From contig NZ_JAUNHI010000019.1 in NCBI RefSeq assembly GCF_030524025.1, positions 1 to 47,013 on the forward strand: a stretch of DNA of 47,013 nt. Direction: 5' to 3'. A program made the position numbers and the translations under genes. The stretch comes from Actinomyces sp. GTDB taxonomy: Bacteria > Actinomycetota > Actinomycetes > Actinomycetales > Actinomycetaceae. The notes under the pieces were generated by a model, which saw nothing but the letters and a program-made list of their open reading frames with translations, was not told the origin of the DNA and did not search any database. Positions 10,767 to 23,639 of the stretch are shown here, in pieces; the stretch's first letter is position 1; each line of letters opens with the position of its first letter.

Positions 10767-10969
10767 GTCAACTGGGGTGGGGGGGGGGGGGGGGGGGGGC
10801 CCCCCCCCCCCCCCCCCCGCCCCCACCGCGCTCCCCCCGCGCGGGGGGGAGTGTGACCACACCCCCGCCCCCACCCCCCACACCCCGACGCCCCCGGGGG
10901 GCGCGGCTGGGGTTCAAATGGGGGGTGGGTGGGTGCCGGTCCCCCCCCCCCCCCCCCACCCCAGTTGAC
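10767..10969. repeat. 29-bp inverted repeat enclosing G21-C19 homopolymer region
   Basis: The left arm 10767-10795 (GTCAACTGGGGT followed by G) is exactly complementary to the right arm 10941-10969 (C17, then ACCCCAGTTGAC). Inside lie 21 G at 10779-10799 directly followed by 19 C at 10800-10818, then further C- and G-runs and the palindrome CCCCCCGCGCGGGGGG at 10833-10848. The right arm ends inside the -35 box of the sulfur-operon promoter. The decamer GTGTGACCAC occurs at 10851-10860 and again at 10999-11008. No gene lies here. The tract could fold into a hairpin or G-quadruplex, or partly reflect sequencing or assembly error. Confidence 0.8.
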
Positions 10970-11000: not shown

Positions 11001-11087
11001 GTGACCACGGACCTCGCACACCGCCCGGCGGCCCCTGCCCGCCTCGGCACGCTGCGTGTCCTGTGCTCCATGTGTTGTCAGGCCTGA
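11001..11087 (+). CDS. Leaderless cysteine-rich leader peptide upstream of sirA
   Basis: A 28-codon ORF starting at GTG 11001, exactly where transcription is predicted to begin, and ending C-S-M-C-C-Q-A then TGA at 11085-11087. The three Cys codons (TGC, TGT, TGT) lie in its last seven codons. Polycysteine, leaderless short ORFs ahead of sulfur genes are known in mycobacteria as cysteine-responsive attenuators: ribosomes slow at Cys codons when charged Cys-tRNA is scarce, changing downstream RNA folding and operon expression. Here sirA is the first structural gene, 166 nt downstream. Too short for normal gene prediction; position, promoter and codon content are the evidence. Confidence 0.7.
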   Translation: MTTDLAHRPAAPARLGTLRVLCSMCCQA

Positions 11088-19647: not shown

Positions 19648-19812
19648 TCAGCCCAGCACGGTGAGCAGGTCGCGCAGGCTGGCCACGACAAGGGCGCCGG
19701 GGCGTCGTCGGGCAGGGTGACCGAGGTGCCCGGCCGCACGAGCAGCGCGGCGGCCATCCCGGCGGCGCGTGCCGCCGCCATGTCGATGCCCCGGTCCCCG
19801 ACGCACAGCTAT
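19648..19812 (-). pseudogene. C-terminal remnant of a HAD-superfamily hydrolase
   Basis: The minus strand reads LCVGDRGIDMAAARAAGMAAA then LLVRPGTSVTLPDDAPA, the last motif and end of a HAD phosphatase. A one-base shift near 19698 moves to ALVVASLRDLLTVLG and a stop at 19648. An in-frame stop lies just upstream of the LCVGD, so the N-terminal two-thirds with the nucleophilic aspartate is gone. The frameshift is in a GC-rich run; the truncation is not explained by that. Confidence 0.7.
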
Positions 19813-19966
19813 TCTCCCCGGATCTGGCCTGCCGCACCGGCACTCGGAGACCCGATCTCCTGCTGGGTCCGGTCCCCGGCACCGCGGCCGGGTGGCGCTC
19901 GGACGCGAGGCGGGCTGAGCCGACCGGCCCGGCAGAGCCCCGACGGTCTCGCAGATCGGCGCAGCG
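19813..19966. other. Non-coding stretch before the ABC importer promoter
   Basis: No ORF with family resemblance is visible on either strand. The sequence is GC-rich and contains no strong hairpin that I can see. It separates the HAD remnant from the importer promoter. Confidence 0.4.
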
Positions 19967-19996
19967 CTGGGCATGGCGGGGCATCGGTGTTACGGT
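19967..19996 (+). promoter_or_regulatory. Candidate promoter of the Cys-leader ABC importer operon
   Basis: -10 TACGGT (19991-19996) with a weak -35 CTGGGC (19967-19972), spacer 18 bp. A start near 20003 would give about 45 nt before the leader ORF. Confidence 0.4.
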
Positions 19997-20047
19997 TCGG
20001 GCACGCGGCCGCGGTCGGCGGCCGCCGGATGCAGGAGGAGGAACTCG

Positions 20048-20083
20048 GTGCGCATGTGGATGTGTTGCTGTCGCTGTCACTGA
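20048..20083 (+). CDS. Cysteine-rich leader peptide MRMWMCCCRCH upstream of ABC importer
   Basis: An 11-residue ORF, GTG 20048 to TGA 20081-20083, encoding MRMWMCCCRCH: three consecutive Cys codons (TGT TGC TGT) and a fourth after Arg. A strong GGAGGAGGAA ribosome binding site (20034-20043) sits 4 nt upstream, so it is very likely translated. It lies 45 nt before the importer ATPase gene. GCTGTC (20073-20078) pairs with GACAGC (20084-20089) across the last Cys codon and the stop, so ribosome position would decide whether the hairpin forms. Three-Cys leaders are known cysteine attenuators in mycobacteria; by analogy this one should link importer expression to cysteine supply. Confidence 0.8.
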   Translation: MRMWMCCCRCH

Positions 20084-20128
20084 GACAGCCTCCAGACCCA
20101 TTCGCTCCCAGACCGAGACGAGGTGCTC

Positions 20129-20923
20129 GTGCGCACTCCCACCCCGCCCGCAGACCAGTCCGACGACCACCGGCCGGCATCGCCCGCCGACGTGCTCGTG
20201 CGCATCAGCCATGTGGTCAAGCGCTACGGAGACTTCACCGCGCTGGACGATGTGTCCCTGGACATCCACCGCGGTGAGGTGGTCACCGTCGTCGGCGCCT
20301 CGGGCTCGGGCAAGTCCACCCTGTGCCGCACGATCAACCGCCTGGAGACCATCGAGTCCGGCACCATCGAGATCGACGGCGTCCCCCTGCCCGAGGAGGG
20401 CAAGGAGCTGGCCCGCCTGCGCGCCGAGGTCGGCATGGTCTTCCAGTCCTTCAACCTCTTCCCGCACCTGAGCGTCCTGGACAACATCACCCTGGCTCCG
20501 GTCAAGGTCCGCGGCCTCGACAAGGACATGGCCCAGGCCAGGGCGCGCTCCCTGCTGGAGCGCGTCGGGCTGGCCGACCAGGCCGCCAAACGCCCGACCC
20601 AGCTCTCCGGAGGCCAGGCCCAGCGGGTGGCCATCGCGCGGGCCCTGGCCATGGACCCCAAGGTCATGCTCTTCGACGAGCCCACCTCCGCCCTGGACCC
20701 CGAGATGATCAACGAGGTCCTCGACGTCATCAAGGACCTGGCCACCTCGGGGATGACGATGCTCGTCGTCACCCACGAGATGGGCTTCGCCCGCTCGGCG
20801 GCCGACCGGGTCGTCTTCATGGATGCCGGGCAGATCGTCGAGGCCGGCCCGCCGGCGGAGTTCTTCTCCCAGCCGCGCACCGAGCGCGCCCGCGACTTCC
20901 TGTCCAAGGTCCTCAGCCACTGA
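20129..20923 (+). CDS. Polar amino acid ABC importer, ATP-binding protein (probable cystine/cysteine)
   Basis: A 264-residue GlnQ-type ATPase powering amino-acid uptake. Motifs: Walker [12 protein letters not shown]-loop [17 protein letters not shown], signature [16 protein letters not shown], Walker [15 protein letters not shown] and switch [12 protein letters not shown] 20129 has GAGG five bases upstream; GTG 20123 is an in-frame alternative. First structural gene of a four-gene operon. The Cys-rich leader ORF just upstream suggests cystine or cysteine as substrate; the protein itself would otherwise be read as a general polar amino acid transporter. Confidence 0.93.
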
Positions 20924-21095: not shown

Positions 21096-22055
21096 ATGGC
21101 GACCCTGTCCCGCCGACTCCTCCTGACCTCCTCGGTCTCCGCCTCCGTGGCCCTCGCCCTGGCCGCCTGCGCCGACACCGGCGCCGACGGCCAGGCGGTG
21201 GCCAGCGCGTCAGAGGGCGCCGGCGGCTTCGACACCGCGGTAGCCTCCGGCCCGGTGGCGGCCGACGACGTCGTGGCGGCCTCGACCTGGGCCACAGCCA
21301 TCAAGAACGCGGGCAAGCTGCGCACGGGCGGGACGAAGACCTCCCAGGTCTTCTCCATCGAGGACCCGGCCACCGGCAAGCTGACCGGCTTCGACGCGGG
21401 CCTGGCCCAGGCCCTGGCCCGCTACATCATCGGCGGGGACGACGCCGCCTCTCTGCTCGAGGTCACCCAGGTCTCCTCCGACACCCGCGAGACCTTCCTG
21501 ACCAACGGCAGCGTCGACGCCGTCATCGCCACCTACACGATCACCCCGGAGCGGGCCCAGAAGATCACCTTCGCCGGCCCCTACTACTCCTCGGGGCAGA
21601 TCGTCCTGGTCACTTCCGATAACAGCGAGATCACCGGGGTGGAGTCCCTGGATGGCAAGAAGGCGGCTGTCCAGTCCAACTCGACCTCCGCCGACGCCCT
21701 GGCCGAGAAGACCCCGGGGGCCCAGGCCGTGCCCTTCGACACCAACTCCGAGTGCGTGGCGGCCCTGACGGCCGGGCAGGTCGACGCCTACGTCGTCGAC
21801 CAGGCGCTGGCACTGTCCGAGATCGCCGGCAACGACTCCCTCAAGATCGTTGGCGACCCCTTCACCGACGACCCCTACGGCATCGGCCTGCCCAAGGACT
21901 CCGACGCCCAGGCCTTCGTCAACACCTTCCTGGAGACCATCGAGTCCGATGGCACCTGGGACGCCATCTGGCAGGCCACGATCGGCGCGATCCTGGGCGG
22001 CTCGGCACCCGAGCCGCCCGCCATCGGCTCGGTCCCCGGTTCCGAGACCGCCTGA
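21096..22055 (+). CDS. Amino acid ABC importer, substrate-binding lipoprotein
   Basis: A 319-residue family 3 solute-binding protein anchored outside the cell. The signal peptide SRRLLLTSSVSASVALALAAC ends in a lipobox with lipid-modified Cys25, preceded by twin arginines. The mature domain shows family marks such as GKLTGFDAGLAQALARY, VDAVIATYTITPERAQKITFAGPYY and VDAYVVDQALALSEI. ATG 21096 follows AAAGGAA. The ligand cannot be read from sequence; the operon's Cys leader favours cystine/cysteine. Confidence 0.92.
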   Translation: MATLSRRLLLTSSVSASVALALAACADTGADGQAVASASEGAGGFDTAVASGPVAADDVVAASTWATAIKNAGKLRTGGTKTSQVFSIEDPATGKLTGFDAGLAQALARYIIGGDDAASLLEVTQVSSDTRETFLTNGSVDAVIATYTITPERAQKITFAGPYYSSGQIVLVTSDNSEITGVESLDGKKAAVQSNSTSADALAEKTPGAQAVPFDTNSECVAALTAGQVDAYVVDQALALSEIAGNDSLKIVGDPFTDDPYGIGLPKDSDAQAFVNTFLETIESDGTWDAIWQATIGAILGGSAPEPPAIGSVPGSETA

Positions 22056-22122: not shown

Positions 22123-22779
22123 ATGACGGTCCTCACCGACAACCTCGACCTGCTCGGGCAGGGCCTGGCCACGACCCTGGTCCTCGCCCTGTCCGCCTAC
22201 GCCGGCGCCTTGGTTCTGGGCACCGTCATGGCGGTGTTCCGGGTCAGCCCCATCCCGCCGCTGCGGCTCGTGGGCGCTGCCTGGGTGACGGTGGCATGCA
22301 ACATCCCGCTGCTGTGCCTCATGATCCTGGCGGCCTTCGCCCTGCCGGTGGCCGGGGTGCGCGTGTCCCTGTTCTGGGCCGCGGTCGGCTCCCTGACCTT
22401 CTCCGCCTCAGGATTCGTCTGCGAAACCGTCCGCTCCGGGGTCAACTCGGTGCCCAAGGGGCAGATCGAGGCCTCCCGGGCCCTGGGCATGCCGTTCTCG
22501 ATGACCATCACCCGCGTCGTCCTGCCCCAGGCACTGGCCCGCACCATCCAGCCGCTGGTCAACATCTTCATCTCCTGCCTCATCGGCTCGGCTCTGGCCG
22601 CCGCCATCGGCGTGCCCGAGCTGACCAGCGTCACCCAGTCCCTCAACCGCCAGTACGCCGAGGCGGTCGTCACCTTCCTCACCTCGGGCCTGACCTACCT
22701 GGCCATCGCCTTCGCCGCCACGAAGGTCGGGGGAGCGCTCGAACGGCGCCTGTCCTCAGGACGGGAGGCCCGCGCATGA
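22123..22779 (+). CDS. Amino acid ABC importer, permease 1
   Basis: A 218-residue HisM/GlnP-type permease with about five membrane segments. The cytoplasmic coupling (EAA) loop is SVPKGQIEASRALGMPFSMT, followed by VVLPQALARTIQPLVN. An AGGAG ribosome binding site precedes ATG 22123. Its stop overlaps the start of permease 2 (ATGA), consistent with a heteromeric permease. Confidence 0.93.
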   Translation: MTVLTDNLDLLGQGLATTLVLALSAYAGALVLGTVMAVFRVSPIPPLRLVGAAWVTVACNIPLLCLMILAAFALPVAGVRVSLFWAAVGSLTFSASGFVCETVRSGVNSVPKGQIEASRALGMPFSMTITRVVLPQALARTIQPLVNIFISCLIGSALAAAIGVPELTSVTQSLNRQYAEAVVTFLTSGLTYLAIAFAATKVGGALERRLSSGREARA

Positions 22780-23639
22780 CGATGGCATCGACCCGGCTCG
22801 TCACCCGCCGGGGGCGCACCACCGGCCCCACCGACTCGGCCCTGCTCTTCGATGCACCAGGGCCCCGCGCCCGGCGCCGCATCCTTGTCTGCTCGGTCCT
22901 GGTCACGGTGCTCATCGTCGCCCTGGTCGCGGCCGCGGTGGCCCAGCTGGCCCAGGCCGGCCAGCTCGACTACCCCAAGTGGCGCTACTTCGCAGGCCAG
23001 TCGGTGGTGCGCTACCTGGGCAAGGCGCTGCGCGACACGCTGACGGTCACCGCCGTCAGCGCGGCGCTGTCCTTCCCGCTGGGCATCGTCCTGGGTTGGG
23101 CGCGGCTGGCGGCCGGCCGGGTCGGCAAGGTGGTCGTGGGAGCCTGGATCGACGCCATGCGCGCGATCCCCATGCTCCTGCTCATCTACTTCTTCCTCCT
23201 CGTCGTGCCGCGCTGGGGCCTGACACTGTCCCCCTTCTGGATGCTCGCGGTGCCCATCGTCATGTGCACCTCGGCGACCACCTCCGAGGTGTTCCGCTCC
23301 GGCGTGCTCTCCCTGGACCGGGGGCAGAGCGAGGCATCCCTGGCGCTGGGCCTGAGCCGCGGGCAGACGATGCGCCTCGTCCTGGCCCCGCAGGCGCTGC
23401 GGGTCATGCTGCCCACCCTCATCACCCAGCTCATCGTCATCCTCAAGAACTCCTCCCTGGGCTACGTCGTGGCCTACGCCGAGCTCATGTATGCCGCGCG
23501 CCTGCTGGTCTCCAGCGCCCGCGCCACGGTGTACCTGGACGTCTACCTGCCCGCCTACATGATCGTGGCGCTGCTCTACATCGCCCTCAACTGGTCCCTG
23601 GGCGCGGCCGCACGCCGCATCGAGGCGCGCACCCGCTGA
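22776..23639 (+). CDS. Amino acid ABC importer, permease 2
   Basis: A 287-residue permease, longer at its N-terminus than permease 1, where a cytoplasmic extension (VTRRGRTTGPTDSAL) precedes the first membrane helix. The coupling loop is LDRGQSEASLALGLSRGQTMR followed by LVLAPQALRVMLPTLITQL and LKNSSLGYVVAYAELMY, typical of the GltK/GlnP family. The stop lies in a palindrome shared with the convergent exporter gene. Confidence 0.93.
   Translation: MTMASTRLVTRRGRTTGPTDSALLFDAPGPRARRRILVCSVLVTVLIVALVAAAVAQLAQAGQLDYPKWRYFAGQSVVRYLGKALRDTLTVTAVSAALSFPLGIVLGWARLAAGRVGKVVVGAWIDAMRAIPMLLLIYFFLLVVPRWGLTLSPFWMLAVPIVMCTSATTSEVFRSGVLSLDRGQSEASLALGLSRGQTMRLVLAPQALRVMLPTLITQLIVILKNSSLGYVVAYAELMYAARLLVSSARATVYLDVYLPAYMIVALLYIALNWSLGAAARRIEARTR

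Follow-up and report, generated by a model that had tools for sequence, protein, structure and literature searches.

A conserved cysteine-codon leader and hairpin precede an amino-acid importer operon in Actinomyces and probably form a cysteine-responsive attenuator

Introduction

Does a frame of eleven codons, four of them for cysteine, control the amino-acid ABC importer operon that follows it in an Actinomyces genome, and if it does, through which RNA structure? The frame lies in the stretch of 47,013 nucleotides analysed here (the window). In attenuators of the trp, his and ermC type, leader codons read an amino acid or a drug, and the coding region of the leader is itself an arm of the RNA switch. 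For mycobacterial polycysteine upstream open reading frames (uORFs), ribosome stalling reportedly unfolds RNA that would otherwise mask the ribosome-binding site of the next gene. A 2020 study by Canestrari et al. in Mol Microbiol is said to describe leaderless polycysteine uORFs of mycobacteria as attenuators.

In the text available of PMC13236596, Canestrari 2020 is cited for cysteine genes of M. smegmatis being under translation attenuation. The accessible part of Seliverstov et al. 2005 (PMC1262725) predicts cys leaders for the cys operons of Mycobacterium and Propionibacterium acnes and for Bifidobacterium cbs, and the corresponding part of Shell et al. 2015 (PMC4633059) describes mycobacterial cysA2, Rv0485 and nirA as preceded by conserved, leaderless uORFs rich in Cys. 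Among the matches listed in our literature search none dealt with an Actinomyces cysteine leader, a weak negative given that subscription papers were thinly covered.

Results

A cysteine-codon frame ahead of the importer operon

The leader and the operon comprise the following features.

19991..19996, + strand: possible -10 element TACGGT (TG-extended), read from the sequence by itself
20033..20043, + strand: Shine-Dalgarno stretch of the uORF, AGGAGGAGGAA, from the window sequence
20048..20083, + strand: leader uORF MRMWMCCCRCH, GTG start, TGA stop, Cys codons 6, 7, 8 and 10
20114..20123, + strand: Shine-Dalgarno region of the ATPase gene, CGAGACGAGG, from the window sequence and the leader alignment
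20129..20923, + strand: ABC importer ATPase of the polar amino-acid type, by family search, start by homology
21096..22055, + strand: substrate-binding protein SBP_bac_3, by family search
22123..22779, + strand: permease, whose best NCBIfam model is a cystine ABC transporter permease, below its cut-off
22776..23639, + strand: second permease, by family search

The earlier note on this DNA had described an 11-residue peptide with three consecutive Cys codons and a fourth, a ribosome-binding site of its own and the ATPase gene within 50 nt, and each of these is present. The uORF reads GTG CGC ATG TGG ATG TGT TGC TGT CGC TGT CAC TGA; upstream of it stands AGGAGGAGG, the stretch before GTG 20048 being AGGAGGAGGAACTCG, and the gap from the TGA stop to the ATPase start, GTG 20129, is 45 nt. 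This start was favoured over 20123 because many relatives read GAGGTACTCGTG there. A filter for Cys-rich short frames (4-40 codons, three or more Cys, a Cys share of 20% or more, and nested starts taken together as a single frame) was passed by this uORF and by no other frame in the window. A scan of 19900-20300 returned no sigma-70 promoter pair near the leader, and a TG-extended -10 element just 5' of the uORF was rejected as a conserved feature, this form being found in 2 of 41 leaders when 60 nt were examined. Transcription of the window leader may start at about 20003.

The binding protein was considered as a guide to the substrate and rejected, as its PDB relatives carry the names of Gln, Glu, Arg and others. 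The leader keeps its position in 35 of 42 cases, before an importer that sequence comparison places in the polar amino-acid type.

Conservation of the leader and its codons

An orthologue of the ATPase (at least 78% identity) was found in 42 of the 49 genus genomes searched, and in 35 of these 42 an in-frame leader that carries three Cys codons in a row (CCC leader) lies ahead of it, each time with a Shine-Dalgarno-like stretch within 14 nt (35/35, by a loose pattern), which bears out the claim that the leader has its own ribosome-binding site. A search for C-C-C peptides at the same position in relatives, proposed in the earlier note, was thus successful; absence of the frame from relatives with the same importer, which had been named as evidence against it, applies to seven of the 42 orthologous loci. 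These seven (G006, G008, G011, G016, G019, G026 and G042) were inspected by eye. In G019 the place of the CCC leader is taken by VRDLMCCRP; G011 and G026 (L094, L095) have Shine-Dalgarno-led short frames that contain CRGC and end in RRCRGCRLH[HR], possibly a divergent form of the leader; the sole candidate in G006, G008 and G042 is a VGCCPP frame some 350 nt farther upstream; and in G016 no leader frame was seen upstream of the ATPase orthologue.

Of 213 family genomes, 38 contain a match to a 36-nt uORF pattern, 37 belonging to the genus and the other being G193; the same pattern reversed, as a control, had no match in the 213. The leader's presence at 35 of 42 orthologous loci, taken with this empty control, argues that it is not a product of chance. 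When the ATPase was searched in 37 other family genomes, 11 matched (E <=1e-85), giving 13 loci, and the stretch scanned at these 13 contained no CCC frame. Among genomes with names, 32 stretches matched the 36-nt pattern, 23 in Actinomyces and nine elsewhere. One pattern match is the 36-nt frame MTYLMCCCCCR of Bifidobacterium jacchi (L050:3719-3754). Of 48 distinct pattern-matching leaders 41 were kept, 34 before importers and seven before permeases, and seven non-Actinomyces leaders were dropped on looks alone (L034, L046, L049, L050, L051, L055 and L057); two further non-Actinomyces matches, L032 and L056, lie outside the set of 48.

The commonest form of the peptide is V-R-M-[WR]-M-C-C-C-x-C-[RH]. 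Its M-C-C-C residues are conserved, while residues 2-4 and residue 9 vary among importer uORFs. Codon choice is narrow: codon 7 is TGC and codon 8 is TGT in all 32 distinct full-length importer uORFs. Over 34 distinct importer uORFs the 154 Cys codons divide into 95 TGT and 59 TGC; the Cys codons of 12 window genes are 27 TGC and one TGT.

A hairpin with one arm in the uORF

Comparison of the leaders yielded two nested helices, P1 and H2, which are listed here with a further hairpin at the start of the ATPase gene.

20056..20062, + strand: 5' strand of helix P1, GTGGATG, in uORF codons 3-5, from comparison of leaders
20073..20078, + strand: 5' strand of the stop-codon hairpin H2, GCTGTC, from comparison of leaders
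20084..20089, + strand: 3' strand of H2, GACAGC, from comparison of leaders
20099..20105, + strand: 3' strand of P1, CATTCGC, 15 nt beyond the uORF stop, from comparison of leaders
20118..20130, + strand: hairpin ACGAG-GTG-CTCGT, able to cover the Shine-Dalgarno and start of the ATPase gene, in 23/34 importer leaders

H2 pairs the last Cys codon with the bases directly after the stop and is enclosed by P1. It is the 6-bp stop-codon hairpin of the earlier note, and comparison supports it, its outer pair being C-G in 19 and G-C in five of 24 leaders. The conserved pairing that goes beyond that note is the long-range helix P1, in which uORF codons 3-5 meet CATTCGC. Two of the seven P1 pairs in the window are G-U; relatives pair as GCGAATG/CATTCGC, GCGGATG/CATCCGC or GTGGAT/ATCCAC. 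When the best of 28 offsets may be chosen, P1 is complete at its seven positions in 27 of the 41 distinct leaders; ten others have one mismatch and four have two, three of the latter being A. oris-type. The P1 partner lies 12-20 nt beyond the stop in 39 of the 41.

The earlier note had also suggested that CCTC (20089-20092) pairs with GAGG (20120-20123) in competition with the stop-codon hairpin. Both motifs are there and the first shares C20089 with H2; as a switch, this pairing was rejected, since just 5 of the 34 distinct importer leaders have CCTC within 16 nt of the stop and CCTC:GAGG is absent from the fold predicted for the window leader. Moreover, if a stalled ribosome freed CCTC, starvation would mask the ATPase site, whereas an importer would be expected to need it exposed then.

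For statistical support we used an alignment (A3) of 85 columns and 24 leaders, namely 17 of the 34 importer leaders and the seven permease leaders, restricted in this way because a MAFFT alignment of the 34 importer leaders (A1) had misplaced the spacer motif in some of them. The importer leaders outside A3 are L003, L004, L007, L016, L063, L066, L073, L074, L076, L077, L079, L080, L086, L087, L090, L091 and L100; some have P1 mismatches, and they, or an identical leader, are present in the mismatch, tree, stalling-model and 41-leader counts. Counting leaders as independent and ignoring kinship, as do all the P1, duplex and pairing controls here, we found 97.5% of P1 and H2 cells paired against 92.8 (sd 0.7) after shuffling, and 14 cells changed on both sides against 4.4 (sd 1.5), with 0 of 500 shuffles as high in either case and at most two such cells in slid controls. 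The both-side changes fall on three pairs, a number that 106 of 500 shuffles reach, and the same holds for pair types. RNAalifold, run unprompted on the 24-leader alignment, returned H2 and six of the seven P1 pairs.

Across all 41 leaders, the P1 score was 11.8 with the leader's own spacer. It fell to 10.4 (sd 0.25) when leaders exchanged spacers at random, with 0/20000 permutations as high, and to 6.5 when the spacers were shuffled. Of the 41 leaders, 27 outscored 95% of their own shuffles, and the window leader reached about 92-96%. The duplex between uORF and spacer had an energy of -12.3 in the 34 importer leaders against -11.3 (sd 0.28) when permuted (4/20000 as low), and against shuffled spacers the 41 leaders gave a weak mean z of -0.68. 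Folding z of ten chosen hairpins ranged from -2.4 (the window) to -6.6, and the whole window leader of 148 nt, at a fold z of -1.53, was unremarkable.

On an ATPase tree with 35 leaders, three states are seen at P1 pair 2 (C-G, T-A and T-G) and two each at P1 pair 4 (G-C, A-T) and at the outer H2 pair (C-G, G-C). Parsimony assigned 6 + 7 one-side changes and 11 pair-state changes to pair 2 (about two coincident), 2 + 5 and five to pair 4 (about two coincident), and 2 + 4 and five to the outer H2 pair (about one coincident). The seven permease leaders taken alone (A2) contained no covariation. The comparison thus shows conservation of the predicted P1-H2 hairpin with some compensatory changes, of which few are coincident on the tree.

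Spread of the element and a second class of operon

A covariance model, R1, was built from the 24 leaders of A3.

20032..20112, + strand: whole element, R1 match at 80.6 bits and E 4.2e-18, the window sequence being in the training set

In the window genome the importer copy is the only strong R1 match, the next best having E 0.26. R1 matched 42 of 49 genus genomes at E <=0.05. Under stricter filters that lose weak matches, the 212 family genomes yielded a single weak match from beyond the genus (G156, E 0.005), and the 396 phylum genomes none besides the window genome. Rfam 15 at the gathering threshold had no match in the window or in 13 relative loci, so that no curated model of a known riboswitch or T-box fits the leader; two sub-threshold matches near it, on the other strand, were rejected as looking like chance.

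Beyond the training set, which already held seven leaders of the same class, R1 added 17 genus loci (L154-L170) whose reading-frame layout is that of a peptide-permease operon. The three loci that were family-searched (L107, L155 and L162) have OppC/OppB-like permeases and a binding protein that scores best with the NCBIfam model of glutathione-binding GsiB; all of these assignments fall below curated cut-offs. Although the number of Cys in the 17 leaders ranges from two to five, P1 is kept throughout, fully paired in 16 (wobbles included) and with one mismatch in the other. Many of their spacers hold an extra GC-rich hairpin, GAGCGC..GCGCTC (once GCGCGC..GCGCGC).

Two weak matches were set aside from the R1 loci. 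One (L171:284-368, in G026, E 0.004) contains the frame VPMGMHCRCCR before UgpA/UgpE-like sugar-type permeases; the other (L172) lies inside a reading frame and looks like chance.

Modelling of a stalled ribosome

The ribosome was modelled as a 29-nt mask, and we computed the cost of opening the region from -30 to +15 around the start. With the ribosome stalled at Cys codon 1, this cost was lower by a mean of 5.9 kcal/mol than in free RNA (in 34/34 importer leaders) and by 5.8 kcal/mol than with the ribosome at the stop (in 32/34). Shuffled-spacer controls gave 2.6 and 3.4, respectively, and the mean ranks were 0.16 and 0.22, where 0.5 is expected; the window leader, with ranks of 0.20 and 0.42, is unexceptional among its own shuffles. 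Opening of the Shine-Dalgarno-to-start core cost a mean of 8.0 free and 7.7 stalled over the 41 leaders, and sequestration of this core as the sole switch was rejected on that near identity. For the seven permease leaders the predicted effect of stalling was small over the wider region too. The conserved hairpin takes in the Cys codons, and the ATPase Shine-Dalgarno is outside it. These results support a hairpin that would sense a ribosome on the Cys codons and be open in the low-cysteine state, and the step that it controls may be ribosome binding or transcription.

A second cysteine uORF and other features of the window

A second Cys uORF, VTTDLAHRPAAPARLGTLRVLCSMCCQA, lies at 11001-11087 before a sulfate-assimilation operon made up of a NirA/sulfite-reductase-like gene, cysH, cysD and cysN. 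TAGGTT ends six nt before its GTG, with TTGACC farther upstream, and it is apparently leaderless. The sulfite-reductase gene occurs in 28 of 49 genus genomes, and at 27 of the 28 loci a short frame upstream has MCC[QR]A at or close to its end, the miss (L151) being a shorter locus. Since two designs of Cys uORF share the window, one at synthesis and one at uptake, the view that the importer would belong to a cysteine regulon is strengthened. On inspection by eye, TCAGGC could pair with GCCTGA around the stop of the 11001-11087 uORF, much like H2.

Two other stretches of the window drew attention. Between two genes, 10779-10957 contains homopolymer tracts (21 G, 19 C and 17 C), which may reflect an error of assembly or a repeat of an unusual kind. 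On the - strand, 19651-19810 has a stretch reading GDRGIDMAAARAAGM, which we take to recall a decayed HAD-type hydrolase; a 53-residue piece of it had no Pfam match.

Discussion

The MRMWMCCCRCH leader is probably a cysteine-responsive, ribosome-mediated attenuator of the importer. Its assignment to the attenuator class, as a leader peptide with its own ribosome-binding site before an amino-acid ABC importer, and its stop-codon hairpin are both well supported by comparison. From the uORF, its codon bias, the hairpin and the importer behind it, all of which comparison of sequences brought out, we infer the stalling, its direction, the cysteine signal and a translational step. A ribosome would load on the uORF through its strong Shine-Dalgarno. 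With Cys-tRNA plentiful it would read through, terminate and depart, upon which the uORF and the downstream spacer could fold as the P1-H2 hairpin, the low-expression state. With charged Cys-tRNA short it would stall at the TGT-rich Cys codons 6-10 and cover the 5' arm, so that the hairpin stays open, the downstream ribosome-binding region is relieved and more importer is made. That the importer is raised when cysteine is short is the most likely direction, a sign that follows from its role as an importer.

Cysteine attenuation might act on transcription instead, the uORF ribosome and P1-H2 governing Rho access or pausing of RNA polymerase, which we consider unlikely but the alternative to be taken most seriously. 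The Shine-Dalgarno core was hardly affected in the modelling, and the permease class keeps the hairpin with a small predicted effect on its ribosome-binding region, so a mechanism shared by both classes might not be translational; the available text of PMC1262725 also proposes Rho for actinobacterial cys leaders. The consensus scan of 19900-20300 found no intrinsic terminator-like site between leader peptide and gene, although this result is silent as to Rho. The spacer is moreover just 45 nt long, and stalling would expose its C-rich 3' arm where a Rho site would have to be hidden. If translational coupling or reinitiation fed the ATPase gene and the Cys codons merely set ribosome flow, a short uORF with a strong Shine-Dalgarno and stop-to-start distances of 41-58 nt in importer leaders would be in keeping, but classical coupling usually spans a shorter gap, the main frame has a Shine-Dalgarno of its own, the P1 helix goes unexplained and starvation would be expected to cut importer output rather than lift it; we regard this as improbable.

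Very little weight goes to the two readings in which uORF translation in place is not what counts. That the peptide itself acts, by binding a metal or thiol or as a signal, with its position incidental, would suit the CCC motif and the conserved M-C-C-C residues; variation at residues 2-4 and 9, the 17 permease-class leaders whose Cys go from two to five with P1 unchanged, and a near-fixed codon choice at the conserved Cys positions, needless for peptide function, make it very improbable. A riboswitch-like or protein-bound RNA hairpin with uORF translation secondary seems just as remote: permease-class hairpins are conserved even with two or three Cys codons, but in the importer class start, stop, Shine-Dalgarno and Cys codons are conserved together, and the Rfam search at the gathering threshold came back empty.

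The ribosome-mediated cysteine attenuator that we favour would be a variant rather than a plain member of the polycysteine class, because the importer uORF is Shine-Dalgarno-led in 35 of 35 leaders where the mycobacterial uORFs are leaderless, the start of its own transcript being put at its place by inference. It resembles the mycobacterial attenuators in being a short uORF with at least two consecutive Cys codons near the stop. It departs from them in its 11 codons and M-C-C-C-x-C-R/H form, in a coding region that is the 5' arm of a conserved hairpin, and in preceding importer operons where theirs precede sulfur or cysteine genes. With the leaders in the accessible text of PMC1262725 it shares runs of Cys codons near the stop of short frames without a terminator; that text reports no conserved terminator-capable hairpin and deals with neither importer operons nor leaders of Actinomyces, and the Actinomyces leader has the conserved P1-H2 hairpin. 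The Cys-rich uORFs in the available part of PMC4633059 find their like at window 11001-11087, before the NirA-like sulfite reductase, whereas the importer leader, with its Shine-Dalgarno and different peptide, differs from those leaderless uORFs. As in trp, his and ermC, the uORF coding region is one hairpin arm, but the Actinomyces leader lacks the terminator-like site of a classical transcription attenuator and the gene's Shine-Dalgarno falls outside the conserved hairpin.

It is possible, and we put it forward tentatively, that the hairpin and leader make up an Actinomyces-specific cis-element placed before both the importer and a glutathione/oligopeptide-type permease, a portable switch for thiol uptake whose output does not involve hiding the Shine-Dalgarno. 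The two uptake operons have different ribosome-binding regions, and it is from this that an output step independent of Shine-Dalgarno hiding would follow. The same 36 nt would then serve as a cysteine-sensing frame and as an arm of a conserved hairpin.

If the cysteine attenuator is real, ribosome-mediated cysteine sensing would reach beyond the leaderless mycobacterial uORFs to another group of actinobacteria, whose leaders are Shine-Dalgarno-led, and would be tied there to uptake, not synthesis. The conserved hairpin would offer a concrete, mutable switch for the question of translational versus Rho-dependent control, and the importer and the peptide permease would be predicted to carry cystine, cysteine or Cys-containing peptides.
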